The notes under the pieces were generated by a model, which ran no database searches, was not told the origin of the DNA, and saw only the letters and a list, made by a program, of their open reading frames with translations. A stretch of 38,148 nucleotides of DNA, from positions 1 to 38,148 of the IMG/VR virus record IMGVR_UViG_3300005253_000220, one strand, 5' to 3'. Both the position numbers and the translations under genes were made by a program. This document shows positions 6,322 through 30,487 of the stretch, piece after piece. Position 1 is the stretch's first letter. Every line of letters starts with the position of its first letter. This DNA comes from a virus.

Positions 6322-6804
6322 ATGCCCGACAGCTACTACCAGCGATTTCTTACTCCTGAGCAGCGTTTCTGGGAGAAGGTCGATAAGAACGGCCCAATCC
6401 CCGCCCACCGTCCGAGCCTTGGAGCGTGCTGGCTCTGGACTGCCGGGAAGTTCAGCAATGGCTATGGTGCCTTCTCCTGCGACGGTCGGCAGATGCGGGC
6501 TCACCGTTTCGCGTTCTTCCTGTCGGGGAGAACGTTCCGTGCCAAGGAGGTAACCGACCATCTCTGCCGCCAGCGGAGCTGTGTGCGCGCCAGCCATCTT
6601 GAGGCCGTTACGCAGTCGCAAAATATCATCCGAGGGATGCGCCCAACCCTTACACTGATGCGGACACACTGTCCCCAAGGACATCCCTACGACGCTGAGA
6701 ATACGGCCTACTCCAAAGAGGGCTGGCGGATGTGCCGCAACTGTCGGTCGGCCAGACTTCGTGAAATGCGTCGGCGTGTTCACTTATCCAATCTCCGAGC
6801 GTAG
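6322..6804 (+). CDS. HNH homing endonuclease
   Basis: This 160-residue protein matches the phage HNH endonuclease type. It has a CWLW...GYG..F segment (about 34-50), then AHRFAF, then the HNH core with VTDHLCRQRSC, SHLEAVT and the Asn of SQNIIRG (about 76-105). A second Cys/His cluster (HCPQGHPYD and CRNC) follows and probably binds zinc. Free-standing HNH genes cut intron-less or gene-less alleles and spread by repair. It is the only convincing rightward gene in the window and fills the gap between the tape measure and the next tail gene. Its last 21 bases overlap the 3' end of the tape measure gene tail to tail. It looks like a late insertion into the tail operon. Function call strong; homing role inferred. 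Confidence 0.9.
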   Translation: MPDSYYQRFLTPEQRFWEKVDKNGPIPAHRPSLGACWLWTAGKFSNGYGAFSCDGRQMRAHRFAFFLSGRTFRAKEVTDHLCRQRSCVRASHLEAVTQSQNIIRGMRPTLTLMRTHCPQGHPYDAENTAYSKEGWRMCRNCRSARLREMRRRVHLSNLRA

Positions 6805-12213: not shown

Positions 12214-13470
12214 CTAGGGGGACACTCCGTGCCCCACCGCGCCGTCCTCGCCGGTTACGCGCCGCCATGCTGCGACCGCTCCGCGTCGTGTACCGAACTG
12301 GCTATCAAGGTCGGCGGGCGAGATGGACAGGCCCTCCTCCTCGCCAGCAATCGCTAGGTCGCGCTGCCAGTGCGCTACCCAGGCCTGGACGTTGTTGCAC
12401 TCGCAGATAGGGCGGTCTAGTAGCGCCGCTGCGAAGTAGGCGATGACGCGCTCCCAATCCGGGTCCATCGTTACCACGGGGCAGTCCAAGTCCTTATTGC
12501 GCAGACCGGCGTAGTACCAGAGCCGCACGATGTCCGGCGACCGCTGGCGCGACCACTCCGCCGATACGAATGCTGATGTCGATGCCGTCCACGTACCCGG
12601 GCGGTAGCCGACGCGGCTCAGCCGAGGGTCGTCGCGCACCATCAGGAACCCGGCCTGTGTGATGTACGAGCCGGGTGAAGCGTTGTCAGCCTCGAACGGC
12701 TCCCACAGGAACGTCGCCTGCGTCTGTGGGTCATTGTAGACGCGGTATACGTCGACCTCGTCAAGGAATTTAGTGTCGTCTGTCCCGTCCACACCGCGGA
12801 TGTGGCTGTCGTCTGCCGGCGGTACGAGGTCTACCTGTAGCTGTGGCAGGACTGCCTGCTCGCGGCGGAAGGTGATAGTCGCGGTCGTGCCGCTGACGGA
12901 GACGCTGATGGGCTTGATCTCCCATTGGTCCTCGCCGCCGGTGGCCACCATTGTGTTGGAGACAGGGAAGTAGACGCGCAGCTCACAGCCGCTCTGGCCG
13001 GAGTCGACCGTGACGCTGACCGTGGCGACCTCGCTGTAGGAGTCGCCGTCCGGGTCGGTGTACGCGACGGTGGTGCCAGCCTCGATAAGCGTTGCAGCTC
13101 GGATTCCTCCTGAGATGAATTGACCGTGCTTGGCCTGAACCGTCGGGGAGTACCCGCGCAGGTCGGTGAGGCTAACGTTGTGGAGCTCTGGCAGGTTCGG
13201 TCGGATGCTCTCGTGCCACTCATCAGTTTCCCATGTGGGCAGCAGTCGGTACCGGAGGAACCGCTCGCACATCGCCTCGGCATGTGCGATGGCGATCGCT
13301 ACCTCCTCGCGGCTGATGCGGTCGGCGGTCTGGTACGGAAATTGGAGCCAGGGCTGCTCACATACAGACGGCGAGCGGACGTAGACGCCGTTGAAATGCA
13401 TCGGATTTATGCCGAGCAGGGACGCCCAGCGGTCCAGGGAGAGCTTCGTCTTCGCTTCAGCGCGTGCCAT
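12214..13470 (-). CDS. Head-tail connector (adaptor-like) protein
   Basis: This 418-residue protein sits between the capsid block and the major tail gene. Its ends resemble helical adaptor proteins that sit under the portal: REEVAIAIAHAEAMCERFLRYRLLP near residues 55-80, and a C-terminal region with WERVIAYFAAALLDRPICEC and an Arg/Glu-rich helix. Between them is a beta-rich insert (about 110-215, VTVSVSGTTATITF type) that looks like an immunoglobulin-like fold. Adaptors are usually 100-150 residues, so this one is enlarged. It overlaps the stop of the preceding small gene by one base. The identification rests on position plus the helical ends, with no diagnostic motif. Confidence 0.55.
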   Translation of the reverse strand: MARAEAKTKLSLDRWASLLGINPMHFNGVYVRSPSVCEQPWLQFPYQTADRISREEVAIAIAHAEAMCERFLRYRLLPTWETDEWHESIRPNLPELHNVSLTDLRGYSPTVQAKHGQFISGGIRAATLIEAGTTVAYTDPDGDSYSEVATVSVTVDSGQSGCELRVYFPVSNTMVATGGEDQWEIKPISVSVSGTTATITFRREQAVLPQLQVDLVPPADDSHIRGVDGTDDTKFLDEVDVYRVYNDPQTQATFLWEPFEADNASPGSYITQAGFLMVRDDPRLSRVGYRPGTWTASTSAFVSAEWSRQRSPDIVRLWYYAGLRNKDLDCPVVTMDPDWERVIAYFAAALLDRPICECNNVQAWVAHWQRDLAIAGEEEGLSISPADLDSQFGTRRGAVAAWRRVTGEDGAVGHGVSP

Positions 13471-13769
13471 TACAGGCTACCTTCCCTCATACCGTCCTGT
13501 CGCCACTCTTCTCGCTGCTCAACTGCCCAAGCAATACCCGCATCAGCAAGAAGGCCAAGTGCTACCTTCGGATTACTTATCAACCAAGCGGTCCACAGGT
13601 CTTTTAGGTCCGGGCAGGACAGCCTCGACCTGTAGAAGCCCCGACAAATGTGGCCCGGACACTTCGAACTCTCCTCCTCACAACCGACGTGCCCACACTT
13701 TGGTGGGGGCTCGTATGTAATAGGGGAGCGCTCGTATGCTTTACGGCACGCTTCGTCAGCCGGTCCCAT
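13470..13769 (-). CDS. Small cysteine-rich protein
   Basis: A 99-residue protein with a possible zinc-binding cluster (CGHVGC followed by CPGHIC, two C-x4-C-like pairs, about residues 25-42). After it comes a hydrophobic-aromatic helix (DLWTAWLISNPKVALGLL) and an acidic end. The start has a GAGG ribosome site 7 bases away and overlaps the upstream gene by 14 bases. The stop overlaps the connector gene start by one base, so the three genes are coupled. No family is recognised. Confidence 0.6.
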   Translation of the reverse strand: MGPADEACRKAYERSPITYEPPPKCGHVGCEEESSKCPGHICRGFYRSRLSCPDLKDLWTAWLISNPKVALGLLADAGIAWAVEQREEWRQDGMREGSL

Positions 13770-14070
13770 TGTTCCACCTCTCCACAGCCACGACCACTGT
13801 CGCTGCAGCCAGTACGATGACGGCGAGCGGTACGACCTGCCAGAGGCCGAACGCTACAGCGGCCATCGGGAGGCCAAGACACCAGGGGCAAGCGATCAGG
13901 TTCCGCACTACGCCGTCAGCCCACGACTCGGGCCGGCCATCGTCGTCGTGCTCGAAGCCGAGCAGGCTGCGCAGTCGTAGGAACACGTCAAGAGGACCCC
14001 GCTCGTACGAGAGCAGAGCCGTCAGGCGCCATGCGGCGAGGCCGATGAGGATGGCTTGCTCAATACCCAT
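13756..14070 (-). CDS. DUF1360-type membrane protein
   Basis: A 104-residue membrane protein. The N-terminal AAWRLTALLSYERGP and the central LIACPWCLGLPMAAVAF are the recognisable features of the DUF1360 family, found in phages and in Gram-positive and other bacteria. Two hydrophobic segments (about 3-20 and 63-95) flank a polar acidic loop; the CPWC pair could be redox-active or metal-binding. The ATG follows directly after the stop (TAA) of the large glycosyltransferase reading frame. The molecular role of the family is unknown. The family call comes from memory of the motif and should be checked with a profile search. Confidence 0.7.
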   Translation of the reverse strand: MGIEQAILIGLAAWRLTALLSYERGPLDVFLRLRSLLGFEHDDDGRPESWADGVVRNLIACPWCLGLPMAAVAFGLWQVVPLAVIVLAAATVVVAVERWNNGTG

Positions 14071-14385
14071 TTAGGCCTCCTGGTGAACTTCGCCTCGGCG
14101 GAAGTCTATCTTGGCCAGGAAATACTCCACGTCTACCGCGAGCACGTATTTGACCTGGTCGGAACCGTCGGCGGCGAACCGATACCGAGTCCCGCTGGGG
14201 CCACGAAAGTTCTGTGATCCGCGCTTACGCCCCACATACTCTATGATAGCATACTCGCCCTTCCCATCGCCTGCACCACCATTCGCGGTCGCTGCCCGTA
14301 CGCGCTGAGCGGCAGTCGGTCCTGCGGACACGTCGCCTGTGGGAGCGCTCAGCTTCTTCTTCTTAGCACAGCTACTGCATGCCAT
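14071..14385 (-). CDS. Internal in-frame gene: small head-tail type protein (MACSSC)
   Basis: Inside the large glycosyltransferase frame, an ATG at 14385 is preceded by AAGGAG (14397-14392) with a 6-base gap, a near-ideal ribosome site. Translation from it gives a 104-residue protein. It starts with a Cys/Lys-rich MACSSCAKKKK, followed by a flexible Ala/Gly linker and a compact beta domain (YVGRKRGSQNFRGPSGTRYRF). Small proteins of this general look occur near phage connector genes. It may be made alone, only as the tail of the glycosyltransferase, or both. Its presence at the start of the connector block supports an independent gene whose upstream neighbour lost its stop codon. Independent function is inferred. 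Confidence 0.5.
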   Translation of the reverse strand: MACSSCAKKKKLSAPTGDVSAGPTAAQRVRAATANGGAGDGKGEYAIIEYVGRKRGSQNFRGPSGTRYRFAADGSDQVKYVLAVDVEYFLAKIDFRRGEVHQEA

Positions 14386-16773
14386 GAGTGTCTCCTTCCC
14401 GTCTAGGTACTTGGCCCACTTCACGCGCAGCTCCGCCTTGTTCTCCTCGAAGCGCGCGTAGTTCTCTTCGCGGCGCATCCCCTCGTCCTTGCGGTAGGTA
14501 AACAGCGGGTGTGGAATGCGCGTGCCGCAGACGCCGATCTCAGCCATCTTGAGCTGGTAGTCCCAGTCCTCCCAGGCAGGGATCTTCTCGTCGAAGCCGC
14601 CGACCCGTTCCCAGTCCACCTTCGTGTAGAGCGCCGTGATGGCGTGAATGCAGCCCTTGGCCAGGAGGTCCTTGGCGTCGTACTCCGGCGTCTTCCAGAC
14701 CTTCGACTTCTGCCCCGCCCACCGCTCATACCAGTCAGAGTAGACAACTCCGCCGACCTCCTTGTGGGCAGCGAAGAGGTAGGCGAGAGCGTCCGGCTCA
14801 AGAGTATCGTCTGCGTCCAGCGGCAGGAAGAGCGCTGCATGCGCCGCGGCAATGCCGAGGTTGCGCGCAGCTCCCACACCTATCTTGCCAGTCGTGTCGA
14901 TGACCCGCGCCCATGACGGAACGTAGCGCAACGGCCGGCCGGTATCGTTGACTACAATGCACTCCCAGAGGCGGAAGGTCTGAGCGTCGAGGCTGTCGAG
15001 CGCATCGATTACCAGCTCCTCGTGTCCAGGCCCGACAGGAATAATGACACTGACCAGGATCGGCTCGTAGGACGGAACGATCACCTCACCCTCGAAGTCA
15101 ATCGCGGAGGGTGGTGGCGCTAGCTCACGTGACCACGGATACCAGAACGTCCAGTCGGTGCGCGTCTCGTTCCTGCTCATGGACTCTACGCGGTTGCGAT
15201 ACACCAGTGTGTCGGCACCCGTAACCTTCCGAGCCACGAACCCGTAGCTAGTCGCTCGGGTCCAGAAGTCAGCGTCCTCGGCTGTACGGAAGCGCCGGCG
15301 GTAGCCGCCCGTCAGCTCCCACACGCGGCGCCGATACATAGAAGTCGAAGGGATGCAGTTGGCTGGCTGCTGGTCCTTGTCCGTCAACTTCAGTACCTGA
15401 TGCTCCGCCCTGAAGGGATCAGGTGGCCAGCCTGAGTGCCAGCGCTTCCCGTCGGGGTCCAGGAACAGGACACTGCCGTAAGCAATGTCGATGGCGCGCT
15501 CAGCGTCGAGTCCCTGGGAGAGGAACTCCAGTGCGCGGCGAGGTAGCGTGTTGTCGGCGTCGAGTGGGAGGATGTAACGTCCCGTTGACGCGGCAGCGCC
15601 TATGTTGAGCGCGCCGGCTAGGTATTGGTTCTCCTTGTTGTGGATGACCTTGAAGCGCGAATCCACCTTCGCGGCCGCGTCGGCGATCTTGCCACAGGCG
15701 TCCGGGGAGGCGTCGTCTACGATGATGCACTCCCAATCCTGCTCGGTCTGTGCCGTGATCGACTCAAGCGTCTCGGGCAGATGCTCGTCGAGCTTGTAGG
15801 CGGGGACGATGATTGAGATCTTCGGGGTCTCGCGCTTCGTTGCGGCTAGCGTCTCCTTGTAGAGTTCCGCGTAGGCGCCGACGATGTCCTTCCACTGGTA
15901 GTGTGCCAGCGCGACCTTCCGCGCAGCCTTTCCCATCCTGACACGATGCTCAAGGCAGTAAGAGAGCCCGCGCATGAGGTCGTCGTAATCCCCCGGCTTG
16001 GAGAGCCAGCCAGTGACCTTGTGCTCGATGAACTCCGCCTGGCCACCCCACCGCCAGCCAAGAATCGGCACTCCGGCAGCCATCGCCTCGATAGTACCGA
16101 TACCGAAAGTCTCGCGCGGCGTGCAGAGGTAGACGCTCGCACCGCGCACGTATTGCTTAGCGCGCTCGTACGGGACACGGCCAGTCACCTCAACGTTTGC
16201 CAGACCCTTGTTGCCGAAGGTGGTAACGAACTTCACACCAGGCATCCGCTTGGCGAGAATGTTGACCGGCTCCGGGTCGCAGATGGCGTCCGGCCGCGTC
16301 TTGTTCCACAGCACGTAGCTGGCGCGCTTCCGCGGCTTCGGTGCGGGCCAGTCCTTCGCCTCGATACCGTGACTGATCGCCACCACTTGACGGAGGCTAC
16401 TGCGTCGGAGAGCCTGGGCGACCCACTCGCTGGGACCAGTGATAGCGTCAGCCATGCGGAGGGTCTTCAGGCACTCGGCGTTGGCCTTGAGGCACCAATT
16501 CGCGTACTCGGGCTTGATACCCTCGTCCCAGTCGTATTCGGCCCAGTAGAGCCCGTGGTTGTGCAGGACAAGGGGCACACGCGCGTCCGTCCGGAGGATC
16601 GGCTTGTCAACCATAATGTGCGCCGCGACGAGGTCGGCCTTGCGCACGTCGGTCACGAGCGTCACTCCATGGTCGGGAAGGTGTCGGCGCTGTGCCTCAA
16701 CCACACGCCTTATGCCGCCGTCGCCTTTGTCCTTGCCCTTAAAGTCGGGATGCAGAAATACCTTGATCGTCAT
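14071..16773 (-). CDS. Three-domain glycosyltransferase (GT4-GT2-GT2) with C-terminal small-protein fusion
   Basis: This 900-residue protein appears to join three sugar-transfer domains. Residues 1-310 are GT-B type, with ETFGIGTIEAMAAGVPI (about 221-237) matching the GT4 donor-binding signature. Residues 317-550 are GT-A type (family GT2): SIIVPAY, VDDASPD, a PLDAD DxD-like motif at 403-407 and AEDADFW near 498. Residues 571-790 are a second GT2: SVIIPVG, PLDADD at 651-656 and WEDWDYQ near 735. The frame then runs without a stop into a 104-residue segment starting MACSSC at 797. An ATG at 16788 lies further upstream, but the one at 16773 has GGAGG 5 bases before it. Such chains usually build an oligosaccharide stepwise. 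It sits between a second glycosyltransferase and connector genes, so virion glycosylation is the likely use (inferred). Confidence 0.85.
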   Translation of the reverse strand: MTIKVFLHPDFKGKDKGDGGIRRVVEAQRRHLPDHGVTLVTDVRKADLVAAHIMVDKPILRTDARVPLVLHNHGLYWAEYDWDEGIKPEYANWCLKANAECLKTLRMADAITGPSEWVAQALRRSSLRQVVAISHGIEAKDWPAPKPRKRASYVLWNKTRPDAICDPEPVNILAKRMPGVKFVTTFGNKGLANVEVTGRVPYERAKQYVRGASVYLCTPRETFGIGTIEAMAAGVPILGWRWGGQAEFIEHKVTGWLSKPGDYDDLMRGLSYCLEHRVRMGKAARKVALAHYQWKDIVGAYAELYKETLAATKRETPKISIIVPAYKLDEHLPETLESITAQTEQDWECIIVDDASPDACGKIADAAAKVDSRFKVIHNKENQYLAGALNIGAAASTGRYILPLDADNTLPRRALEFLSQGLDAERAIDIAYGSVLFLDPDGKRWHSGWPPDPFRAEHQVLKLTDKDQQPANCIPSTSMYRRRVWELTGGYRRRFRTAEDADFWTRATSYGFVARKVTGADTLVYRNRVESMSRNETRTDWTFWYPWSRELAPPPSAIDFEGEVIVPSYEPILVSVIIPVGPGHEELVIDALDSLDAQTFRLWECIVVNDTGRPLRYVPSWARVIDTTGKIGVGAARNLGIAAAHAALFLPLDADDTLEPDALAYLFAAHKEVGGVVYSDWYERWAGQKSKVWKTPEYDAKDLLAKGCIHAITALYTKVDWERVGGFDEKIPAWEDWDYQLKMAEIGVCGTRIPHPLFTYRKDEGMRREENYARFEENKAELRVKWAKYLDGKETLMACSSCAKKKKLSAPTGDVSAGPTAAQRVRAATANGGAGDGKGEYAIIEYVGRKRGSQNFRGPSGTRYRFAADGSDQVKYVLAVDVEYFLAKIDFRRGEVHQEA
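14392..14397 (-). promoter_or_regulatory. Internal ribosome-binding site
   Basis: AAGGAG on the minus strand, 6 bases upstream of ATG 14385 and inside a longer open frame. It is the evidence that the MACSSC segment can be translated on its own. Confidence 0.55.
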
Positions 16774-16784
16774 GTGAGCCTCCG

Positions 16785-17522
16785 TCATCCGAAGTCGTAA
16801 CTTTGGGTGTTTACTGTCGCCTGAAATCGTTCTGGAGGAACGGCCTGATTGGGTTCAAGGTCACCCAGTTTCAAGCTCCAGAGATGCTGCCAAGGACTGA
16901 GCATTGCCACGAGCACATCCGGACCATCTGGTCGGGCACAGATAGCGGCATTATACTCAACTTCGGTTTTGGCTGGCGAGGCTGCCTCCATGAATGGTCC
17001 ATAGGCATAGAAGAAACGCTCGTGGTAGAGCGCAGGAACGAGTGACCAATAGAAGGCGTACCGCTCAAAGCTAACACCGACTTGCTGACCAAACCTCCTC
17101 CCCCGCCCTCCACGCACCGAACCGCTGGGCTGACCCATGCGAATGCACCCAATCTCTGGGTGCTGGGTTAGCAGATTCATCCAGGGCTGTAGATCCAAAT
17201 CGCAAGCAAGTTCCCAGTCGTCCATTGGATATAGTACAAACGGGCTTATCTTTGTGCAGACTGCAAGCCCTGTATTGAGCGATGCTCCCAGTCCCCCCTG
17301 CTGCTGCTGGCTATAGCTTAGGGTAGCCCAGTCTCCCAGCAGCCGCCTCCAGAATGATTCTCCAAAATCAAGGTCTGGTGCCGATCCATCATCGGAGACA
17401 TGAACATGTACCTCTCCCGGAACGCCTAGGTGTGCCTTCCAGCTCTCCACCGCACGGCGAACTGCTTCGATCCGCAACTGACCCCCCGGCGGCACATACG
17501 TGGTTACTAGGACAGCGATCAT
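16785..17522 (-). CDS. GT2-like glycosyltransferase
   Basis: A 245-residue protein with the GT-A fold pattern: IAVLVTTYVPPGG at the start, HVSDDGSAPD at about 40-50, and a metal/donor site FVLYPMDDWELA at about 115-126. It shares the DDWEL pattern and the DDGS motif with the 239-residue protein at 20410-21129, so the two are likely paralogs. The expected product is a nucleotide-sugar-dependent transferase acting in the cytoplasm; donor and acceptor are unknown. The ATG overlaps the upstream stop (ATGA). The stop overlaps an upstream ATG of the three-domain transferase. Confidence 0.75.
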   Translation of the reverse strand: MIAVLVTTYVPPGGQLRIEAVRRAVESWKAHLGVPGEVHVHVSDDGSAPDLDFGESFWRRLLGDWATLSYSQQQQGGLGASLNTGLAVCTKISPFVLYPMDDWELACDLDLQPWMNLLTQHPEIGCIRMGQPSGSVRGGRGRRFGQQVGVSFERYAFYWSLVPALYHERFFYAYGPFMEAASPAKTEVEYNAAICARPDGPDVLVAMLSPWQHLWSLKLGDLEPNQAVPPERFQATVNTQSYDFG

Positions 17523-18202
17523 GATCCCAGCCCTACCCGCATCGTCTCTGGCCTGCTTATAGTGGATACTGCTGTCTCCACGTCAACGAGAGACCTCCTG
17601 GTGGTGGCTGCCAGTTCCTCACAGAAGATTGCGGAATCTGTAGTCTTGAGGTTGAGAACTTCCGGGAACCGGAATCGACACATGGGGATTTGGTGATGGG
17701 TGCAGATTTGCAGTCCATATCCTACGGCCGCCAGCAGAACCAAGTCGGCATCCTCGCCCTCATAGATATAGGGAAGTAGCCGCGGATCCCATGCTGCGCG
17801 TGAGAGCGTTATATGTGCCAGCATCCGACTTGGCTGTACCACGCGGTCGACTAATCCTGCATGCACCCACAGATCGAGAAGCGGCAGTAGAAGCGGGGAC
17901 TTAACCACTTGTCCCAGTGCGTCTGTAGAAGGTGGCAATGCTTCCTGTAATCGGATCCGTAATGGACGGGGGTTTGTGTCGGAGATGGGCTGATCGAGCC
18001 GCGCCTCCGACCACTGGCAAGTAGGAAATCGTGCTTTCATCGGACCGATAAGGAGTTCTCGGCACAGGGTATGAAGGGGAGGATACTCCCACCCAGCATT
18101 CACCTTCTGATCGAAACTCCCACCAGGATCGAATCCCAACTCCCTAAAGCACTCGGCGACGAACGACGTTCCCGTCTTGCCTAGTCCAGTAATGAAGATC
18201 AC
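17519..18202 (-). CDS. Sulfotransferase-like P-loop protein
   Basis: A 227-residue protein starting at GTG 18202, which overlaps the upstream TGA (GTGA). The longer open frame upstream is the antisense-like shadow of the kinase-methyltransferase gene and is rejected. The N-terminus FITGLGKTGTSFVAECFRELG matches the PAPS-binding P-loop of the sulfotransferase family (G-x-x-K/R-S/T-G-T-S). A later R...S...R region around residues 125-145 (QPSRMLAHITLSRAAWD) may form the 3'-phosphate site. The predicted reaction transfers sulfate from PAPS to a sugar or protein, which would add charge to a glycan. The call rests on the P-loop and length; another small P-loop transferase is possible. Confidence 0.55.
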   Translation of the reverse strand: MIFITGLGKTGTSFVAECFRELGFDPGGSFDQKVNAGWEYPPLHTLCRELLIGPMKARFPTCQWSEARLDQPISDTNPRPLRIRLQEALPPSTDALGQVVKSPLLLPLLDLWVHAGLVDRVVQPSRMLAHITLSRAAWDPRLLPYIYEGEDADLVLLAAVGYGLQICTHHQIPMCRFRFPEVLNLKTTDSAIFCEELAATTRRSLVDVETAVSTISRPETMRVGLGS

Positions 18203-19269
18203 GTGACTTCCCAGACTGTTCGGTGCGCTGGGCGTCCAGCTACGTGGACTCTGACCAGCTCCTTCGGAGTGCCGACCTGCGCAAGCATCGCCTGCACGTC
18301 CTCCTCGGTCTGAAGAAAGTCCGGCCCGGGACCGTCTCCGTAGAGCTGTGTCTCGAAGAACAGCTTGCCACCCTGCCGCCGTCGCGATAGCTGCTGCATG
18401 ATGCGGCTTAGCAGCTCCAGCGCAGCCTTCTTCCCGTGCGTCTGTACGATGTACGGCCACGTTGAGAACAGCAGTACCGCGTCGTAGTTGAAGTCAGTAA
18501 CGTCCATGATGTCCGTCTTCCGCCAGGTCATCTTCCCGTGCATTCCGTCCCACAGCGCATGGGCGATCTGGACGGAGTCCTCGCCGGTGCGGAACCCTCC
18601 GCCGTCAACGCCAGTGGTGTGCATCCCCTCAGCCGCCGCCAGTGCGCAGAAGTCGCCCTGGAAGCAGCCAAGGTCTAGTAGCGTCTTGTCCTCAAGACCC
18701 CGGTGCGGATCGGAGTTACCGTCGCGGAGGCTACCGCAGACGGAGAACCAGCGGCGGATGATACGCGGAGTGTCAGGTGTGGGGTGTGCCTCAGAAGCCA
18801 CCGTTGCTGCCCATTTCAACAGGTAGAAGAAGTCGGGGCTCCTATGCTTCGGTGGGCACGGCTCGTCGTAGAGGTGCGCCTCGTGGAAGTCAACGGCGAC
18901 CGGGGTTGAGTTGGCGCACACGAACATGTTCTGGTGAGTGAGGTCGTCGTGATGGATCTCGTAGTGCCGCAGCGTCCAGAGGAGCCGTGCGATATTGCGG
19001 CGGAACTGCTCACCATCCTCAACTGGCTCCGCCTTGATGTATGTCTCCACGATGTAGTCGTCGTGCTGCTCAATCAACTCGGGGGCGATCCCGCTGCCCG
19101 CTAGTATGCGGAGGATGCGGGCCTCGTTGGCGATCGCCTTCTTGTTCTCCCATAGGCGCCCGTCCGCCTCACACACTCCGTCGAAGGTAACACGCTTGAC
19201 AATGACGCCGTTCTCGTGGCTGACTTCGAGACCATAGTGGCCTCCGACACGGACTGGCTCTTCAGACAT
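18199..19269 (-). CDS. Kinase-like and SAM methyltransferase fusion
   Basis: The protein has 356 residues and two domains. Residues 1-135 look like a small kinase of the aminoglycoside or lipopolysaccharide kinase type: VIVKR (22-26), an NEARIL helix (48-53), a catalytic loop HHDDLTHQN (106-114) and a metal-binding VDFHE (126-130). Residues 190-356 are a class I methyltransferase with LLDLGCFQGDFC (197-208) and GVDGG acidic-loop motifs. The kinase domain is short, about 130 residues, so it may be a minimal fold. A bifunctional enzyme that phosphorylates and methylates a glycan end, as in capping of bacterial O-antigen chains, fits the surroundings. It starts by TAATG coupling to the preceding virion-like gene and ends in a GTGA overlap with the sulfotransferase gene. 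Domains are clear; substrate is inferred. Confidence 0.75.
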   Translation of the reverse strand: MSEEPVRVGGHYGLEVSHENGVIVKRVTFDGVCEADGRLWENKKAIANEARILRILAGSGIAPELIEQHDDYIVETYIKAEPVEDGEQFRRNIARLLWTLRHYEIHHDDLTHQNMFVCANSTPVAVDFHEAHLYDEPCPPKHRSPDFFYLLKWAATVASEAHPTPDTPRIIRRWFSVCGSLRDGNSDPHRGLEDKTLLDLGCFQGDFCALAAAEGMHTTGVDGGGFRTGEDSVQIAHALWDGMHGKMTWRKTDIMDVTDFNYDAVLLFSTWPYIVQTHGKKAALELLSRIMQQLSRRRQGGKLFFETQLYGDGPGPDFLQTEEDVQAMLAQVGTPKELVRVHVAGRPAHRTVWEVT

Positions 19270-19865
19270 TACAGCACCTCCCGCAAACTTACGATCGCGT
19301 ACCGTGCATCCCGATCATGTTCGGGAGTCGTAGCAGGATCAGGAAGACCTCCAGCTACGTGCCCCTCTTGGTTAAGGACAGCAAGAACAGCTTGCTTCAT
19401 GACGCTAGCGTTGGCACCGCTCGCCGTGATTGGTAGACTGGCCATACCAGTTGCATCCGGACCGTAACAGGTCGGGGCTACATCGCTAACTGCCGTTAGG
19501 AAGTAGAAGCCCTCAAGCAGCTCTTGGCTGATGGTCTTCACCTTATATCCGGCCGCACCACTCACATCCACCGTGCCGGCGTCCAGAATGCGCGTCGAGG
19601 GTTGCAGATCATCGTCGGCGTTGTAGATGCCGAGTCGTGCTAAGCCAGCCGCCCCTGCCTGCGTGGAGATTGCGATCCTATCGTAGGTAGTCGTCCTCGA
19701 CACGTAGATGGGAATGAAGTACTCTTCACCCGCTATCAGCACAGCCGTCCCTGTCTGGAATCCCGCCCAGCCTGGACGGACATAAGGCTGCTCCCCTGGC
19801 ACATAGAGAGTAGGAAGTACGCGAGCCCCTGCTGCGCCACCTGCTGCGCCGCTAAAGCTACTCAT
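19269..19865 (-). CDS. Virion-like beta-rich protein
   Basis: A 198-residue protein starting MSSFSGAAGG at ATG 19865, with GGAGG 7 bases upstream and an ATGA overlap with the preceding stop. Upstream in-frame codons are not needed. The Ala/Gly-rich start is followed by a jelly-roll-like pattern (FIPIYVSRTTTYDRIAIST...GLARLGIYNADDDLQPS...LEGFYFLTAVSD), common in phage head or tail decoration proteins. It has no enzyme motif, signal peptide or membrane span. It sits with the next upstream gene (also virion-like) between glycosyltransferases and a kinase-methyltransferase. It could be a particle protein that carries the glycan or binds to it. Role inferred. Confidence 0.55.
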   Translation of the reverse strand: MSSFSGAAGGAAGARVLPTLYVPGEQPYVRPGWAGFQTGTAVLIAGEEYFIPIYVSRTTTYDRIAISTQAGAAGLARLGIYNADDDLQPSTRILDAGTVDVSGAAGYKVKTISQELLEGFYFLTAVSDVAPTCYGPDATGMASLPITASGANASVMKQAVLAVLNQEGHVAGGLPDPATTPEHDRDARYAIVSLREVL

Positions 19866-20404
19866 GCAGGTTCCTCCGTCCACTCGATATAGCCGTTGAT
19901 GATTGCGTCGGCCTGGAGCACAATTGTCATGCACTCAGCGGCACCTCGCAGGACAGCTTCCCGTACATTCTGCACGTCGCCAAACGTCTCGAAGAGCACA
20001 TCACTCGTCCCGTGATCAGCATCGTAGATATTGCCTACTGCTGCTCCCGGTGTCGGAGCGACTGTGTAGAGGCGGACGACAGCACTCGCAGCATCGTCCG
20101 CGCTATCGAGCGGCACCTTTGCGGGAGTCGTACTGGTACCTCCAGTTGCGGCCGCGCTGTTCTTCGTGAAGATCAGCGGAGCTTGGGCGACTGAAGGCTT
20201 AGCGAATTGAACGCGCGAAACGCGGATAACACGGTTTGCTGCTCCCTGGATTTGGACGGCCACACCAATCACTCCAGCCAAGTCCGCAAAGGTCGTACGG
20301 TACGTGGCTCTCGTTGCTAACACCGCGGTGTTAGCTGCCGCCAGAGCCTCAAGCGTAGCCAGTCGTTGTCTGACCTGGACAAGTGTCTTCTCTGCACTTT
20401 GCAT
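19862..20404 (-). CDS. Virion-like protein with N-terminal helix
   Basis: A 180-residue protein starting MQSAEKTL at ATG 20404 (AGAGGA about 9 bases upstream). It begins with a heptad-like helix (about 5-30, LVQVRQRLATLEALAAAN), suited to trimerisation. A beta-rich Ala/Thr/Ser body follows, ending in a short segment (INGYIEWTEEP) seen in many phage structural proteins. Ser and Thr content is high in the middle (SAAATGGTSTTPAK), which could offer O-glycosylation sites. It precedes a second virion-like gene with an ATGA overlap. The virion role is inferred from composition and fold pattern. Confidence 0.5.
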   Translation of the reverse strand: MQSAEKTLVQVRQRLATLEALAAANTAVLATRATYRTTFADLAGVIGVAVQIQGAANRVIRVSRVQFAKPSVAQAPLIFTKNSAAATGGTSTTPAKVPLDSADDAASAVVRLYTVAPTPGAAVGNIYDADHGTSDVLFETFGDVQNVREAVLRGAAECMTIVLQADAIINGYIEWTEEPA

Positions 20405-20409
20405 TGGTA

Positions 20410-21129
20410 CTATTCCTCTCCCTGCATTGGTGCGGTGCTGCCCGCAGCCTCTTCCTCTCCGCCGGCCTTGGCCGCACCGATGTGGACGAACAGGTCGCCG
20501 CTCGGCTTGACAAGATCCATTGGCCACACGACGCCCGCACGTGCCTCGGCACGGCTAGCGACCTCCATCTCCGTCTTGCCCTGCTGGAGGTTCTCTGGCC
20601 AGATGCCGATATCGCGCTCAAAACTCACCGTCTCCAGACGTGGGCCTCCAGCGAAGACATGGCGCTCAGGCGAGGATGGGTCAAAGGCTAGCCAGTGAAG
20701 GTTCTCGTGCCAGACTACCGTCCCTCGGAGCTCAGCGGTGAATCCGATGTATCCGAGCCGACAGCAGCGGAAAGCGTCAGCCCGTAGTGCCGCTGCGATG
20801 GGCGCCAGGTCAAACGGGCGTACGAGCTCCCAGTCGTCCTCCAATGGCAGCACCAAGTCGGCGACCCGGTGCGCGTCCTGGAGTGCGAGATTGTAGTTTC
20901 CTCCGTAGCCGCGCCCCCCACTGTTCGAGACGCTAGTGCGGTCGCCGTACTGCTCTCGCGCACGGGCCACGATCTCCTCGCGGAACGCCGGGTCGGAGCC
21001 GTCATCAGCTATGTGCATCCAGAACTCGTCGTCGCTGGCGGAGAGGTTCGTGAGTGCCTCAAGGGTCTTGAACGCGTACTCCGTCCGTTCCTTCGGCCGG
21101 TCGCAGGTCAGCAGTACGATAGCGATCAC
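20410..21129 (-). CDS. GT2-like glycosyltransferase
   Basis: A 239-residue protein starting at GTG 21129 (GTGA overlap, GGAGGT 8 bases upstream). It opens IAIVLLTCDRPKE, has HIADDGSDP at about 40-50, and LVLPLEDDWELVRPFDL near 92-108 as the metal/donor site. These match the 245-residue transferase at 16785-17522, so they may be duplicated genes with separate acceptor specificities. The C-terminus is acidic and Gly-rich (GGEEEAAGS). Predicted cytoplasmic nucleotide-sugar transferase; donor unknown. Confidence 0.72.
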   Translation of the reverse strand: MIAIVLLTCDRPKERTEYAFKTLEALTNLSASDDEFWMHIADDGSDPAFREEIVARAREQYGDRTSVSNSGGRGYGGNYNLALQDAHRVADLVLPLEDDWELVRPFDLAPIAAALRADAFRCCRLGYIGFTAELRGTVVWHENLHWLAFDPSSPERHVFAGGPRLETVSFERDIGIWPENLQQGKTEMEVASRAEARAGVVWPMDLVKPSGDLFVHIGAAKAGGEEEAAGSTAPMQGEE

Positions 21130-21803
21130 GGCGAGTACCTCCTCCAGGTTGGCGGTCGCCAGTCGGCGGTCAACTTGTTCCGTACCTCGTGTAGGATGCT
21201 AAACCAAGATCGCCGCTGCGCTGTGTCTGTGTTCTCATGGACACGATACCAGTATAGCGGTTCTGTTCCGTCAACCATAATGATCGGGACTGGGCCGTGC
21301 GCAAGGAGGATGGACAGGAACATGGTATCCGCCGCCCCGACGACCGACTCTGGCGGGAAGCCACCTGTCTTTCGCCAGAGGCCTTTGGTCACCATCGCCG
21401 CGTGGCAGGCGATGTATTGGTCCTCCCGGCCATCGCTGTGCATGACCCCGACATTGTAGTACGCGTCGATCTCGCCCTCGCGGAGGTAGGCCTCAACGCA
21501 CTTCTCAAGGCAGTTGGGCAGGAGCTTGTCGTCGGCGCCGAGCATGAAGACGAGGTCCGTCTTCGCCAGCGCTACACCGCAATTGAAGACGCCAGCAACG
21601 CCAAGGTGCCAGGGAGCGCGCCAGACACGGAGCTGCGGCAGCCTTTCGGTGCCACCACCTATCGACAGGTTTGCCATATCGTCGACTAGGAGGACGTCAG
21701 CCGCCGGGTGCGTCTGCTGCGCGACGCTCTCCAAACACTCCTCTAGAAAGTCGGTGTGGTGTGCCTCGGGACCGACCGGGATGATGACGCTTATGCCCGA
21801 CAT
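21126..21803 (-). CDS. GT2 family glycosyltransferase
   Basis: A 225-residue GT-A protein. SGISVIIPVGPEAH begins the nucleotide-binding strand, LLVDDMA follows near residue 40, and LVFMLGADDKLLP (about 85-97) holds the acidic metal site. GAADTMFLS (about 155-163) fits the region that positions the acceptor base. This is the standard single-domain family GT2 layout and length. The ATG has GGAG 5 bases upstream and overlaps the end of the RmlD-like gene by 13 bases. Sugar and acceptor cannot be told from sequence. Confidence 0.82.
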   Translation of the reverse strand: MSGISVIIPVGPEAHHTDFLEECLESVAQQTHPAADVLLVDDMANLSIGGGTERLPQLRVWRAPWHLGVAGVFNCGVALAKTDLVFMLGADDKLLPNCLEKCVEAYLREGEIDAYYNVGVMHSDGREDQYIACHAAMVTKGLWRKTGGFPPESVVGAADTMFLSILLAHGPVPIIMVDGTEPLYWYRVHENTDTAQRRSWFSILHEVRNKLTADWRPPTWRRYSP

Positions 21804-22552
21804 CGGATCTCCTCCACCAGCCAGTGCAGCATATCTTCTACTGGCGGAACTTCGATATCCGGCCAGAGCACGCGCCAGATGGCGGGCTCTACGGTGCCAA
21901 CAGGCTCAATGGGAAGGTCGAGTTGCTCCTTGAGGTACGTTATCATGAATGCCTTCGTGACCTCTGTCGGCGACGCGACGTGGACAACACCCGTCCGTCT
22001 CCCCTCTGCCAGGATGACGAGATGCTCCGCCATGATGTCCACGCTCGTACCGTTCCAGTGGGCGCGCTCCCAGGCGTCGACCTGCCCCTTAGCGAACAGC
22101 AGCCAGCCGAGGAATCCGGCTCCCTCACCGATGAAGCTGCCACGTACGACGAGCACATGGTCGCCGCTGGGCTCGCCGGCCAACTTGGTTCGGCCGTAGA
22201 GGTCTACGGGGTCAGGTGTCAGACCGGAGTCCAGCCCGTAGCCGCTGCTGGTGGGGTACTTGCGCCCAGAGAATACGCAGTCGGTACTCATGTGGACGAG
22301 GCGAATACCTAGGCGCGCCAGGTTGTGGGGGCCGAGGGCGTTAGCCAGTACGGTCTCGGAGTATGGACGACCAGGAAGGACGCCAGCACAGTTGATGATT
22401 GCGTCAATTGAGCGATTAGGGACTACCTCCTGCCAGAGCACTATATCGCACTGGTCACGGCTCGTTGCCACCACCGTATGATCACGGTAGTCCGCGATCT
22501 TGCAGACCGCCCTACCGAGTAGTCCGTTTGCGCCTGGGACCCAGATCCGCAT
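21791..22552 (-). CDS. RmlD-like sugar-nucleotide reductase
   Basis: A 253-residue extended SDR protein. The Rossmann motif GANGLLG lies at residues 7-13, and HMSTDCVFSG near 86-95 carries the catalytic Thr/Ser region. DLYGRTKLAGE supplies the Tyr-x-x-x-Lys pair. The length and motif order match dTDP-4-dehydrorhamnose reductase (RmlD), which makes dTDP-L-rhamnose; related enzymes reduce other 4-keto sugars. No RmlA, B or C gene is present in the window, so the keto sugar would come from the host or from the nearby dehydratase. The ATG at 22552 has AGGAGG about 6 bases upstream and lies 41 bases inside the end of the methyltransferase gene; upstream in-frame codons lack a ribosome site. Confidence 0.78.
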   Translation of the reverse strand: MRIWVPGANGLLGRAVCKIADYRDHTVVATSRDQCDIVLWQEVVPNRSIDAIINCAGVLPGRPYSETVLANALGPHNLARLGIRLVHMSTDCVFSGRKYPTSSGYGLDSGLTPDPVDLYGRTKLAGEPSGDHVLVVRGSFIGEGAGFLGWLLFAKGQVDAWERAHWNGTSVDIMAEHLVILAEGRRTGVVHVASPTEVTKAFMITYLKEQLDLPIEPVGTVEPAIWRVLWPDIEVPPVEDMLHWLVEEIRCRA

Positions 22553-23141
22553 CTCTCTCCTCCTGCTTGACATACCGCTGGCCAGCCCAGCCGATACCTG
22601 CAACCTTGACAACGCTCAACTCCTGTTTCCGTACCAACTCATTGACGGCGCGCTTGACACCACGAGCTGGCCGCACACCAAGACCGTATAGCATGGGATC
22701 GCCGTAGTCGTGAATCCAGACGAAGCCGCTGTCGCGTAGTAGGGGCAGCCATGCCGCTAGATCGGCGAGGACTGCCTTGTAGGTATGTTCAGCGTCCACC
22801 AGTAGAAGATCGATGTCCTGCCCGCCACGCTCGAAGATGGCTCGGGCTGAGTCGCCCACGAACCCCCGCCAGTCCCGGAGCCTGCCGATATTGCTCACCA
22901 CCAGTTTGCTCCACGCTAGTGCCTGTGCGTCGTGATCGACCGTGCGCACCAGAATCTTGTCCGACACCTCAGCAAAGACGGAGAGTGCCGTAGTTCCGCT
23001 GCCAGCGCCGATGTCTACGACCTGAAGAACCCGATGGGGCTCCTGTTCCCGAAGCCGCCGAACTAGCTCACGAATGAGGTCGACGTCCTCCGCGATGAGC
23101 ATCTGTCGGCTTGCGGATAGAGCGTGTGCCGGACAGGTCAT
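22512..23141 (-). CDS. Class I SAM-dependent methyltransferase
   Basis: A 209-residue protein with motif I VVDIGAGSGTTALSVF (about 42-57), an acidic loop VDHDAQAL (about 68-75), and LLLVDAEHTYKAVLAD (about 112-127) near the active site. The last motif, with VDAEHTY, is typical of the methyltransferase 24 group that modifies sugars in glycan clusters. Predicted to methylate a sugar hydroxyl or a related group. It is directly followed by the RmlD-like gene (41-base overlap). The C-terminus is strongly basic (GPRRKRTTR). Confidence 0.78.
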   Translation of the reverse strand: MTCPAHALSASRQMLIAEDVDLIRELVRRLREQEPHRVLQVVDIGAGSGTTALSVFAEVSDKILVRTVDHDAQALAWSKLVVSNIGRLRDWRGFVGDSARAIFERGGQDIDLLLVDAEHTYKAVLADLAAWLPLLRDSGFVWIHDYGDPMLYGLGVRPARGVKRAVNELVRKQELSVVKVAGIGWAGQRYVKQEERDADLGPRRKRTTR

Positions 23142-23143
23142 GG

Positions 23144-23371
23144 CTACTGCTTCCCTCCGTTGCTGCGCTGGCCGTTCTTGTAGCCGTTCTGGTGGCCGAA
23201 GAAGAAGGCCAGGCCAGCCATCACGACGTTGGAGAACACGACGTTTATGGCTATGATCTGCTCGACTGACCAGTTGGCACTCATACCCACAAGGGTAGTC
23301 ACCAGCATAGCGGTGAGCCCACCCAGCGCGAGCGCTCCGGCGAACAGCAGTTTGATCGTGCTCTCAGTCAT
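23144..23371 (-). CDS. Small two-span membrane protein (possible holin)
   Basis: A 75-residue protein with two predicted membrane spans (about 7-29 and 40-59) separated by a short polar turn. It has a hydrophilic, positively charged C-terminus (NGYKNGQRSNGGKQ). This topology and size match class II holins, which permeabilise the inner membrane at lysis. No endolysin is found beside it, and it sits between the dehydratase and methyltransferase genes rather than in a lysis cassette. A helper for membrane-bound glycan transfer is the alternative. AGGAGG is present 6 bases before the ATG. Confidence 0.5.
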   Translation of the reverse strand: MTESTIKLLFAGALALGGLTAMLVTTLVGMSANWSVEQIIAINVVFSNVVMAGLAFFFGHQNGYKNGQRSNGGKQ

Positions 23372-23381
23372 CGGGTGCCTC

Positions 23382-24326
23382 CTAAAGCTCCTCAGTGTCA
23401 GCGATCAGCTTTCGCATCTCGTCGACCTCCATGCGGTAGTGCGGGGTATGCGATGCGAGCGTGAACGCCTCTCGGCCCTCTTCGTTGGGAGCGGCGCCAC
23501 GAACTACAGGCAGCAGTTCGAGGTGGTCTGTATGTGCCACAACCCGTACCGACTCTTGGTGGTGCAGGAGAGACTCGTGCATCTTCTCACCCGGGCGCAT
23601 ACCTGTGATTTCCACAGGAGTGTCGTCGCCTACAGCGGCGCGCACGGTGTCTGCCAGTGTCATTGCCCGCACTAGCGGGATTGCGATCGAGCCGCCGTCG
23701 AGCTGGAGACCGGTGAGGATGAGGTCAATGGCCTCGTCCACACCCATCCAGAAGCGTGTCATCTTCGGATCCGTGACCTTGACGCTGCCTGTCTCCGTGA
23801 ACTGCCGGCGGAAGAGCGGAATCACCGAGCCTGTGCTGCCGATGACATTGCCGTACCGGACGCAGGTGAAGATGGTTTCGTAGCTCGATACCTCGGCGAA
23901 CAGGCGTTCCATCGCCATCTTGGAGCAGCCATACACGTTGACTGGCTGCACGGCCTTGTCGGTTGAGATACCGATGACACGAGACACTTCGGCGTACAGT
24001 GCCGCCTTCGCTACAGCCTGAGCCCCACCGATGTTGACAGCGAGGCACTCGGCCGCGTTGAGCTCGGCCTCTGGGATGTACTTCAGCGCCGCGGCGTGGA
24101 CGACGAAGTCTACGCCCTCCATTGCCGCCATCAGGCGGTCGGTGTCGCGGACATCGCCGAGGATGTACTTGGCGAAGGGGTACTGCTGCCGGCAGATGTC
24201 CTGCTTCATTTCGTCGCGGGAAAATACTATAGGGTCCCACGCCAGGCGGTGGGTAGCGATGCGTCGTAGAATCCCCCGCCCCAGGAATCCTGCTCCTCCG
24301 GTGATCAATACTCTCGGTGTCGTCAT
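23382..24326 (-). CDS. UDP-GlcNAc 4,6-dehydratase-like enzyme (PseB/CapD type)
   Basis: A 314-residue SDR enzyme starting MTTPRVLITGGAGFLG. The longer frame upstream is a shadow of the capsid gene; ATG 24326 has AGGAGG about 6 bases before it. It shows the Rossmann GGAGFLG, the STDKA (about 119-123) and NVYGCSK (about 128-134) catalytic Tyr/Lys segment, and RYGNVIGSTGSVIPLF. TRFWMGVDEAIDLIL and RPGEKMHE near the end are typical of PseB/CapD/FlaA1 dehydratases. These convert UDP-GlcNAc to a 4-keto-6-deoxy sugar, the first step of pseudaminic, legionaminic or 6-deoxy-amino-sugar pathways. It lacks the N-terminal membrane domain of CapD. It is the first gene after the capsid gene and probably supplies precursor for the downstream transferases. 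Confidence 0.85.
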   Translation of the reverse strand: MTTPRVLITGGAGFLGRGILRRIATHRLAWDPIVFSRDEMKQDICRQQYPFAKYILGDVRDTDRLMAAMEGVDFVVHAAALKYIPEAELNAAECLAVNIGGAQAVAKAALYAEVSRVIGISTDKAVQPVNVYGCSKMAMERLFAEVSSYETIFTCVRYGNVIGSTGSVIPLFRRQFTETGSVKVTDPKMTRFWMGVDEAIDLILTGLQLDGGSIAIPLVRAMTLADTVRAAVGDDTPVEITGMRPGEKMHESLLHHQESVRVVAHTDHLELLPVVRGAAPNEEGREAFTLASHTPHYRMEVDEMRKLIADTEEL

Positions 24327-24391: not shown

Positions 24392-25843
24392 CTACGCGCT
24401 TCCCCAGAGCGTAAATAGGCTCGGACCAGGCCTGCTCGTCTTGCCGCCGTCGACGTGGTAGTCGCCACCAGGGAACGGGTCCCGCTCGTGCTGGACCGGG
24501 CAGTACAGGACGTTCTGCAGGCGCCCTGCCAGCCACGGAGTCCTGAGCACCAGGCGAGGCTCGATCTTCGTCTCGAAGGAGAAGCACTGCCTGAGCTGTA
24601 GGGGCACCGTGAGGAACGCTCCCTCGACCTTCCCCAGGACCATGTTGCCAAGACCGTCCTTGAGTGCGGGGTTGTCGAAGTTGAAGTATTCCAGGAAGGT
24701 GACTGCACGCCCACCGATGACGGACATCGGGATCAGGTAGATGTCGCTGGCGAAGCACCCTGCGGGCACGTTCGCGTTGTCGGCATCGCCCTCTTCCGCA
24801 ATCCCATCGTCCAGGACGACAGGGATCTTCTCGCCATCGACCAGCAGATACCTACCGACGCGCATGGCATCGCGCAGCTCAATGTGCTCCGGCGCATTGA
24901 CATTGATCTGCTCATTGTCACCAAGGTTGCAACGGTAGGTCAGGTAGGAGCACGGCCACACAGCGGTCAGCTCGTAGAAGAGCTGCGGACGCATGGCGAA
25001 CACCCACCGTACCGGCATCACACCGGACATCTCTGCGCGGGTCTTGATCTCGTGGTACAGGGCCGTGATCCAGGCCACGAGGTTGTCACCGTCCGTGTCG
25101 ACGCGCTCGTAGTTGGCGTCGGGCAGATACGAGTCCAGCGAGGGGCAGCTCGTGTTGGTCTCGGCATCCACATGGCCGGTGTTGATGAGGGTGTCGAATC
25201 CCGTCATCTGCTTTTTGGAGCCCTGCTCGCCGGCGTCGTTTGCCGGGTTCCCGATCCAGAGCTCCTGACTCAGGAGACGGTGCATCGCCACGCCCAGCTC
25301 CCACATCTTCTGCGAGACCTCGTTGACGAAGATGTCGCCGGGAACGGACGGGTCGCCGGGGCCCTGTGCGAAAATGCCAGAGCCGTGAATCGGCGAGCCG
25401 ATCAGCGTCAGGTCTATCGGGTCTGCACGGTCGGTCCGCTGCCCAACCCGATTCAACTCAAGCTCTGGAGTCGCCCTCTTGTATCGTCCGAACACGGAGG
25501 TCGTCAGGCAGGCCTTTTTCAGGCCGGCGGTCGGAGCCGCATCGCAGTTCCCGTCTGCCTCATCACCGCTCACGTCCTGGACACCAGTGATGGTGTAGTA
25601 CGTGGGGTTGGTGTAGAGACTCGGGGTGGTGGGGAGCATGCCGAGCATCGACCTGTTCCCCATGATGGTGTGGAACACAACCGGGTCCACACCCGGGAAG
25701 GTCAGGAGACCACCGGGGCCGTGGGCATAGCCCACTGAGATTGGCGTCCCGGAGGCACTGTGCTTCTGACCTTCACGCTGCTTGTCCAGGGCCGGACCCA
25801 GCGCTTCAGCCAGAGCTTCGAGGATTCCCGCTTCTGTGGTCAT
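24392..25843 (-). CDS. Major capsid protein
   Basis: A 483-residue protein following the maturation protease gene, as in HK97-type phages. It has a short N-terminal helix (residues 1-25), then a DPVVFHTIMG segment and a long body. The A-domain-like region holds VRWVFAMRPQLFYELTAVWP (about 277-296), then EHIELRDAMRVGRYLLVDGEKIPVVLDDG. Near the end is a beta-rich region (IPMSVIGGRAVTFLEYFN). The gene has a strong ribosome site (AAGGAGGT about 8 bases upstream), fitting high expression. Four to six cysteines are scattered, with no obvious pattern. The HK97 fold is inferred from position and length. The N-terminus could be cleaved by the upstream protease. Confidence 0.88.
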   Translation of the reverse strand: MTTEAGILEALAEALGPALDKQREGQKHSASGTPISVGYAHGPGGLLTFPGVDPVVFHTIMGNRSMLGMLPTTPSLYTNPTYYTITGVQDVSGDEADGNCDAAPTAGLKKACLTTSVFGRYKRATPELELNRVGQRTDRADPIDLTLIGSPIHGSGIFAQGPGDPSVPGDIFVNEVSQKMWELGVAMHRLLSQELWIGNPANDAGEQGSKKQMTGFDTLINTGHVDAETNTSCPSLDSYLPDANYERVDTDGDNLVAWITALYHEIKTRAEMSGVMPVRWVFAMRPQLFYELTAVWPCSYLTYRCNLGDNEQINVNAPEHIELRDAMRVGRYLLVDGEKIPVVLDDGIAEEGDADNANVPAGCFASDIYLIPMSVIGGRAVTFLEYFNFDNPALKDGLGNMVLGKVEGAFLTVPLQLRQCFSFETKIEPRLVLRTPWLAGRLQNVLYCPVQHERDPFPGGDYHVDGGKTSRPGPSLFTLWGSA

Positions 25844-27634: not shown

Positions 27635-27664
27635 AGTATAGGGGGTTCAGCGAAACCTTGTCAA
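27635..27664 (-). promoter_or_regulatory. Strong sigma-70-type promoter (head module)
   Basis: On the minus strand, TTGACA (27664-27659), an 18-base gap ending in five C, and TATACT (27640-27635). Start would be about 35 bases upstream of the protease gene (27593). The sequence before the -35, ACTGCTTGACAA, is identical over 12 bases to that of the promoter at 34167-34195. Confidence 0.7.
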
Positions 27665-27753: not shown

Positions 27754-28137
27754 CTACACTGCTTTGTCTTGAATCGCTCGGATGAGCCCGCCCTTGTGGG
27801 CCTTGAAGGACTCTTCGGCGTCGTCCACGATAGACGCCCAGCCTAGCCGCTTGAAGAGCTTGCGCTGCTTCGGGTCCTTCTTCTTGAGGCCCTTGACGTA
27901 CTTGCCGTACTTCACCTTGGTTCCGGTGATGACGGCCAGTGCGCCGCCCTGCTGGACGGGCCCGCGCACCGTCCAGCCACGGCCGAGAGCACCGGTACGA
28001 CGATACTTGGTACGCGCCGTGGGGTAGTCGCCGGCCTTCCCCTGCGTCGCGCGACCGATACGCAGCAGCGCCACGCCGATCTTCGAGCGCTTCGGGTCGA
28101 AGCCTTTACCCTTCGGGGTGATCGCTACTAGCTTCAT
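27754..28137 (-). CDS. Tail-completion or connector-type small protein
   Basis: A 127-residue, strongly basic protein starting MKLVAITPKGKGFD at ATG 28137, which overlaps the portal stop (ATGA). The long frame upstream is a shadow of the portal gene. The sequence ARTKYRRTGALGRGWTV followed by Gly/Val-rich strands resembles HK97 gp10-like or phage virion morphogenesis proteins, which close the head or set the tail end. The C-terminal half is lysine-rich. Function is inferred from the motif and from its place after the portal gene; no conserved catalytic residues are expected. Confidence 0.6.
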   Translation of the reverse strand: MKLVAITPKGKGFDPKRSKIGVALLRIGRATQGKAGDYPTARTKYRRTGALGRGWTVRGPVQQGGALAVITGTKVKYGKYVKGLKKKDPKQRKLFKRLGWASIVDDAEESFKAHKGGLIRAIQDKAV

Positions 28138-30344: not shown

Positions 30345-30487
30345 GCGGCTCCTCCTATAAGAGCGGGGGGCGGAGACCATATTTCAGGGCACCCTCCCCC
30401 GCTGTGCTAGCAGTCTGCATGACCTCTCCAACTAGCCTCTCGGCAGTACCCCATGGGCACGTTCATCGGAGAGGAACCTTTACCTCT

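Follow-up and report, generated by a model that had tools for sequence, protein, structure and literature searches.

The virus record IMGVR_UViG_3300005253_000220 is incomplete; its 38,148 bp were analyzed as a whole (the window). Between the genes for the capsid protein (g24) and a putative connector (g09) lies a block of 12 minus-strand genes (24326–14071), nine of which code for glycan enzymes (one of these, g14, recognized at the motif level only), including the multidomain glycosyltransferase g12. In our best reading, the block is a late virion-glycosylation module in a lineage of uncultivated siphoviruses: virion proteins would be glycosylated in the cytoplasm, and the C-terminal module of g12 would guide this enzyme to the capsid. 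We give this reading a probability of roughly two in three. The remaining genes of the block code for one small membrane protein (g22) and two unexplained beta-rich proteins (g16 and g17).

24392..25843, minus strand: g24, major capsid protein, HK97 fold (AlphaFold2 and Foldseek)
14071..16788, minus strand: g12, GT4-GT2-GT2 glycosyltransferase with a fused C-terminal module (Pfam)
12214..13470, minus strand: g09, putative connector (by its conserved place in the gene order only)

Conserved Order of the Capsid and Glycosyltransferase Genes

On the minus strand of the window the order is terminase, portal-MuF fusion, protease/scaffold region, capsid, block, g11, putative connector, tail genes, tape measure, and tail fibre. 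The genes of the block form one series with gaps of at most ~66 nt and many short overlaps. A first-pass annotation had described a glycan-building cassette of about ten genes within the structural series, inserted between capsid and connector. Such a cassette was borne out by Pfam, PDB, and homology support, although the series counts 12 genes; the insertion was not, since in the shortest states the capsid gene is followed directly by g12.

Sequence-profile searches with g24 returned no sequence-family match. However, an AlphaFold2 model calculated from a 40-sequence alignment (mean predicted local distance difference test, pLDDT, 81) matched the capsid of phage SU10 (2.3e-10) and HK97 Head II (2.3e-7) in a Foldseek search against the PDB. 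At the level of predicted structure, this result confirmed g24 as an HK97-fold capsid protein. Of the two flanking labels in the first-pass annotation, capsid is therefore backed by the fold and connector by position, g09 being without a match in PDB and PHROG searches. Neither protein has a relative among 50,697 phage records.

Searches with the capsid protein and g12 recovered ~60 related viral contigs, all environmental and mostly incomplete. Both genes are present in 40 distinct contigs, always on the same strand and with g12 downstream of the capsid gene; the connector comes after g12 in 35 of them, and the other five contigs end first. The distance between capsid and g12 ranges from −64 bp (L105) and 60 bp (L107) up to ~8 kb within the fetched loci. 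For four contigs with a short fetched flank, a search of the whole record placed the capsid gene upstream on the same strand, ~10–12 kb away. With this order found again and again across 40 independent contigs, the block is neither a chance arrangement nor the misassembly that the first-pass annotation had allowed for, and the order together with the direct adjacency of capsid and g12 in L105 and L107 also rules out a recent insertion. This adjacency argues that the head gene cluster included g12 ancestrally, and that the interval between capsid and g12 is a slot with changing content. The first-pass annotation had further proposed to compare relatives that lack the block; none of the related contigs has a capsid gene adjoining the connector gene.

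Across contigs, g12 identity correlates with capsid identity (rho 0.57, connector 0.65; 0 of 500 permutations), so that the link of g12 to the capsid is similar in strength to that of known structural neighbours. The contig L107, the only strong relative from a genome scan, was binned as Methanothrix, an archaeon, and may represent an archaeal virus or a binning error. Because of this possible mis-binning we claim no host.

A Nested Module in the Glycosyltransferase Gene

The protein g12 is 31–84% identical across 48 viral loci. It contains four domains: GT4, GT2, GT2, and a Cys-rich C-terminal module. Both GT2 domains carry DxD-type and ED motifs and the GT4 domain an E-x7-E motif; invariant residues include D410/D412, E504/D505, D658–D661, E740/D741, and the segment RETFGIGTIE. 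The first GT2 domain matches the bacterial chondroitin synthase K4CP (7.7e-16). The earlier description of a three-domain transferase was hence accurate for GT4-GT2-GT2, but overlooked the fourth domain, which appears to have a translation start of its own.

14071..14385, minus strand: nested in-frame gene, with an internal ATG as the predicted translation start of the 104-aa Cys-rich module (conserved start and Shine–Dalgarno sequence)
14392..14397, minus strand: Shine–Dalgarno sequence AAGGAG of the internal start (from the sequence; duplex −8.8 kcal/mol)

The module (87–238 residues) begins with a Cys cluster, after which a linker of low predicted order leads to a small beta-rich domain. 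Directly before the Cys cluster, all 46 fused g12 genes with a complete 3′ end contain a start codon (38 ATG, 4 GTG, 4 TTG). A Shine–Dalgarno match of at least four bases at proper spacing precedes 45 of these 46 internal starts, whereas the rate at background positions of these genes is 4.3%. In a comparison with other in-frame methionines (n = 748), the Shine–Dalgarno frequency was 92% versus 15% and the median duplex energy −8.8 versus −2.4 kcal/mol. Because the sequences tested are related, the nominal p-values are not to be read at face value; the size of the effect is nevertheless convincing. Clustering at 50% identity divides the 46 genes into 28 groups, so that the conservation of the internal start is not explained by relatedness alone.

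After a gene fusion, an internal start and its Shine–Dalgarno sequence would initially persist by descent even if no longer used. We consider it very unlikely that the start in g12 is such a relic, because both elements are maintained down to ~31% identity, and because in eight genomes the residue has changed to V or L while the codon is still a start (GTG or TTG). In L100, the most distant relative, the transferase ends and the module follows as a separate gene (13072–13617) that starts two bases later. From this arrangement and the conservation of start and Shine–Dalgarno sequence, we conclude that the module is probably a separate product as well as a part of the fused transferase. In the fused genes, the free module would be translated from the internal start; the conserved in-frame start with a ribosome-binding site is shared with nested genes of the lambda C/Nu3 type.

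AlphaFold2 predicts a disordered N-terminus for the module (residues 1–43 of low predicted order), followed by the small beta-rich domain. The best matches in BFVD are uncharacterised phage proteins (E 2.9e-3), and a tblastn search of the phage collection with the module found nothing. Alternatively, the free module, or extensions rich in P, T, S, and A, could be both the glycan acceptor and a virion component, with the fusion ensuring its modification. The low order of residues 1–43, the abundance of S, T, P, A, and G in the linker beside the Cys cluster in the window, and the long P/T-rich tails in several relatives (L074, L085, L104) are consistent with this idea. However, the linker varies in sequence and length, and we regard this alternative as unlikely.

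Gene Content of the Cassette and of the Slot in Relatives

The genes between capsid and g12 are listed in the order of transcription.

23382..24326, minus strand: g23, UDP-GlcNAc 4,6-dehydratase-like short-chain dehydrogenase/reductase (SDR) of the FlaA1/PseB/CapE type (PF02719, 6.9e-76)
23144..23371, minus strand: g22, 75-aa membrane protein, also in G001 (hydropathy 2.19)
22512..23141, minus strand: g21, S-adenosylmethionine (SAM) methyltransferase (PF13578, 1.6e-14)
21791..22555, minus strand: g20, RmlD-like nucleoside diphosphate (NDP)-sugar reductase (PF04321, 8.2e-19; PDB, RmlD-type, 1.9e-9)
21126..21803, minus strand: g19, GT2 glycosyltransferase (PF00535, 1.8e-16)
20410..21129, minus strand: g18, GT2 glycosyltransferase (PF00535, 3.4e-4; invariant DDG and LEDDW)
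19862..20407, minus strand: g17, beta-rich protein of unassigned function, specific to the window (Pfam and PHROG-type family searches without a match)
19269..19874, minus strand: g16, member of phage protein family phrog_25864, function of the family unassigned (3.8e-8)
18199..19269, minus strand: g15, kinase-methyltransferase fusion with WbdD-like domains in reversed order (8-sequence profile against the PDB: WbdD 4azw, 1.2e-12)
17519..18202, minus strand: g14, P-loop protein, possibly sulfotransferase-like (ITGLGKTGTSF motif; 61% identical in G001)
16785..17522, minus strand: g13, GT2-like protein related to g18 (relatives of g13 and g18 cross-match)

The closest structure to the g23 profile is FlaA1/PseB of H. 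pylori (2gn4, 1e-86), followed by CapE (3vvb, 8e-80). The catalytic TDK and YxxxK motifs are invariant, and g23 belongs to the SDR dehydratase family by both criteria. In addition to this dehydratase, the RmlD-like reductase, methyltransferase, kinase-methyltransferase, and GT2 enzymes of the first-pass list held up, while g16, g17, and g22 are not enzymes of this kind. For g13, which has no Pfam match, the GT2 assignment is by homology to g18 only, and g18 is conserved in G001, G003, G004, and G005. The start of g14 was corrected to a GTG at 18202. Pfam and PDB searches with this protein gave no match, so that the proposed sulfotransferase is a P-loop protein without assignable family membership; true sulfotransferases (PF00685/PF13469) do occur in the same slot of relatives. 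For g22 a match to the Pfam family Phage_holin_3_6 (E 0.021) stayed below the cut-off.

Between the window and its closest relative, G001 (capsid 93% identical), the genes of the block are under purifying selection wherever the ratio of nonsynonymous to synonymous substitution rates (dN/dS) was computable (0.10–0.34; g23, 0.14); synonymous sites in g13 and g14 are saturated in this pair. The genes g16 and g17 (19269–20407), which interrupt the glycan genes and are not glycan enzymes, are missing from G001. They may code for virion decoration proteins or glycan acceptors.

Among 130 slot open reading frames (ORFs) of relatives, most of which do not belong to the families found in the window itself, Pfam recognized glycan-type enzymes: methyltransferases, eleven GT2 proteins, ten DegT aminotransferases, sulfo-, acetyl-, and formyltransferases, and de-N-acetylases. 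Five HNH genes with HNH_3 domains and a few lectin-like proteins also occur in the slot. Among 122 ORFs beyond the connector in relatives, the same type of search found no sugar enzymes, only tail, propeller, and similar non-enzyme proteins (27 ORFs matched PSII_BNR). In G005 the cassette has a three-gene form (dehydratase, g18, and g12); G003 adds an aminotransferase and an acetyltransferase, a gene set fitting amino-sugar chemistry. In another contig (L043, capsid 67% identical), the capsid gene is followed by 6.2 kb of genes for beta-rich proteins and no transferase before the contig ends, short of the connector. A run of ~200-aa beta-rich proteins (L043, 11729–16112) stands in place of sugar enzymes, as if the slot could also hold protein decorations.

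Proposed Mechanism and Acceptor

In the proposed mechanism, g23 and g20 would convert UDP-GlcNAc from the host to a 6-deoxy amino-sugar nucleotide. The GT2 proteins and g12 would assemble an oligosaccharide in the cytoplasm, which the methyltransferases, the WbdD-like kinase-methyltransferase, and possibly the sulfotransferase-like protein would trim or cap. The acceptor would be a virion protein, most likely the capsid or a protein attached to it, modified during assembly. Two products would arise from g12: the full-length enzyme, which ends in the Cys-rich module, and this module by itself. The probable role of the module is to bind the head during assembly and so deliver the enzyme to its target, and the free form would be the abundant partner. 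In phage lambda the scaffold Nu3 is nested in the protease gene C, and we hypothesize by analogy that g12 is targeted to the head by a similar logic. More tentatively, we propose that capsid assembly and glycosylation are coupled, with the enzyme tethered to the head by the nested-start module and the rapidly changing slot providing each phage with its own sugar coat.

The cassette could instead remodel the surface polysaccharide of the host late in infection, in order to block superinfection or to free progeny from receptors. The resemblance of g23 and g20 to capsule and O-antigen enzymes and that of g15 to the O-antigen chain terminator WbdD speak for such a role. On the other hand, the lipid-carrier initiating transferase PF02397 is absent from 14 related records in which the controls were positive, although other families of initiating transferases, for example of the WecA type, were not included in this search. 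The tyrosine integrase is absent from the same records with positive controls, and the transferases contain no convincing membrane segment. These observations weaken a role at the host surface, as do the strict linkage to the capsid gene and the lack of a recognisable flippase or polymerase in the window, and we consider such a role decidedly unlikely.

Phage glycosyltransferases that hypermodify DNA are also known (Pyle 2024, as cited in PMC12619734), but it is extremely unlikely that the enzymes described here glycosylate phage DNA. The thymidylate-synthase-family hydroxymethylase that would point to hypermodification is absent from the 14 records with working controls, which weakens this explanation, and the genes lie within the capsid series instead of with replication genes. 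TET/JBP was not seen either, but since its own control was also negative, this result cannot be counted as an absence.

Taken together, the genome data lean to a cytoplasmic protein acceptor. The first-pass annotation had favoured the virion itself as acceptor. A precursor-to-transfer-to-modification set in a late structural series, co-inherited with the capsid, is indeed present; the acceptor is still inferred. Two points weigh against glycosylation of the virion with guidance by the module. Co-location with capsid genes hints at late expression and says nothing firm about the acceptor. In addition, the module had no match in the PDB below E 0.2 and no structural match of known function, so that capsid binding by the module is a hypothesis.

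Other Features of the Window

27635..27664, minus strand: candidate promoter TTGACA-18-TATACT (consensus scan; near-consensus sigma-70, 11/12 bases)
13756..14070, minus strand: g11, DUF1360 membrane protein (PF07098, above cut-off)

The candidate promoter is located just upstream of the protease/scaffold gene and is a candidate start for a transcript that includes capsid and cassette. The gene g11 is found downstream of g12 in 40 of 42 loci. A single 748-aa protein (28134–30380) combines the portal domain with the MuF head-morphogenesis domain; in G003 and G005 the two are apart or interrupted. A mobile-element-like HNH endonuclease gene (6322–6804, plus strand; phrog_826, 1.1e-42) sits on the opposite strand within the tail genes. 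Ycf48/BNR-like propeller repeats are apparent in tail-region proteins (10161–11660 and 2321–5920).

Comparison with Known Systems

As far as we found in the literature, virion glycosylation among phages has been shown only in a few mycobacteriophages. If the proposed reading is true, capsid-tied glycosylation with a changeable set of sugar genes would be a basic and variable surface trait of phages. Such a trait would matter for the evasion of antibodies and predators by phages and for their escape from adsorption to debris; the slot is also a source of many new sugar enzymes. With the nested enzyme/module gene, it can be tested directly whether a phage brings a modifying enzyme to its capsid in the way that lambda does with its protease.

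The individual enzymes relate to several known systems. The dehydratase g23 matches FlaA1 and CapE, and g20 is an RmlD-type reductase, but a complete pathway to pseudaminic acid or L-FucNAc is absent from the window, and the final sugar cannot be named. The g15 family matches WbdD, the chain terminator of the O9a O-antigen, in two stretches, and both combine kinase and methyltransferase in one protein. However, the kinase domain precedes the methyltransferase in g15, the reverse of WbdD, and the glycan here may not be a polymer. Tandem GT2 domains are common to K4CP and g12, which differs by its GT4 domain and C-terminal module. In lambda, gene C lies beside the head genes and codes for an enzyme whose C-terminal assembly domain is additionally produced on its own, by initiation at an internal in-frame codon. 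In contrast, g12 is a glycosyltransferase with an unrelated module, whose binding to the head is a prediction.

Among virion-glycosylating phages, Corndog (cluster O), Che8 (cluster F), and Myrna code for their own glycosyltransferases, as does the virus studied here, in which these genes likewise lie within the virion structural series. In Corndog, the interval from portal to protease contains three transferases and an O-methyltransferase (PMC4351075). For phages of the Corndog type, both capsid and tail tube are reported to be glycosylated (Freeman 2023, cited in PMC12363180 and PMC12619734). Homology to the mycobacteriophage transferases was not found: g18 is without a match in the 50,697 phage records, and the tally of g12 matches lists no mycobacteriophage, although Corndog itself was not confirmed to be within this collection. 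The unusual self-decorating particle of the first-pass annotation is tempered by the Corndog precedent. Nonetheless, this lineage differs from known virion glycosylation in place, gene set, main enzyme, and depth of conservation: the cassette is located between capsid and connector, includes sugar-nucleotide synthesis, has a GT4-GT2-GT2 fusion with a nested module as its main enzyme, and is linked to the capsid gene across a deep lineage.

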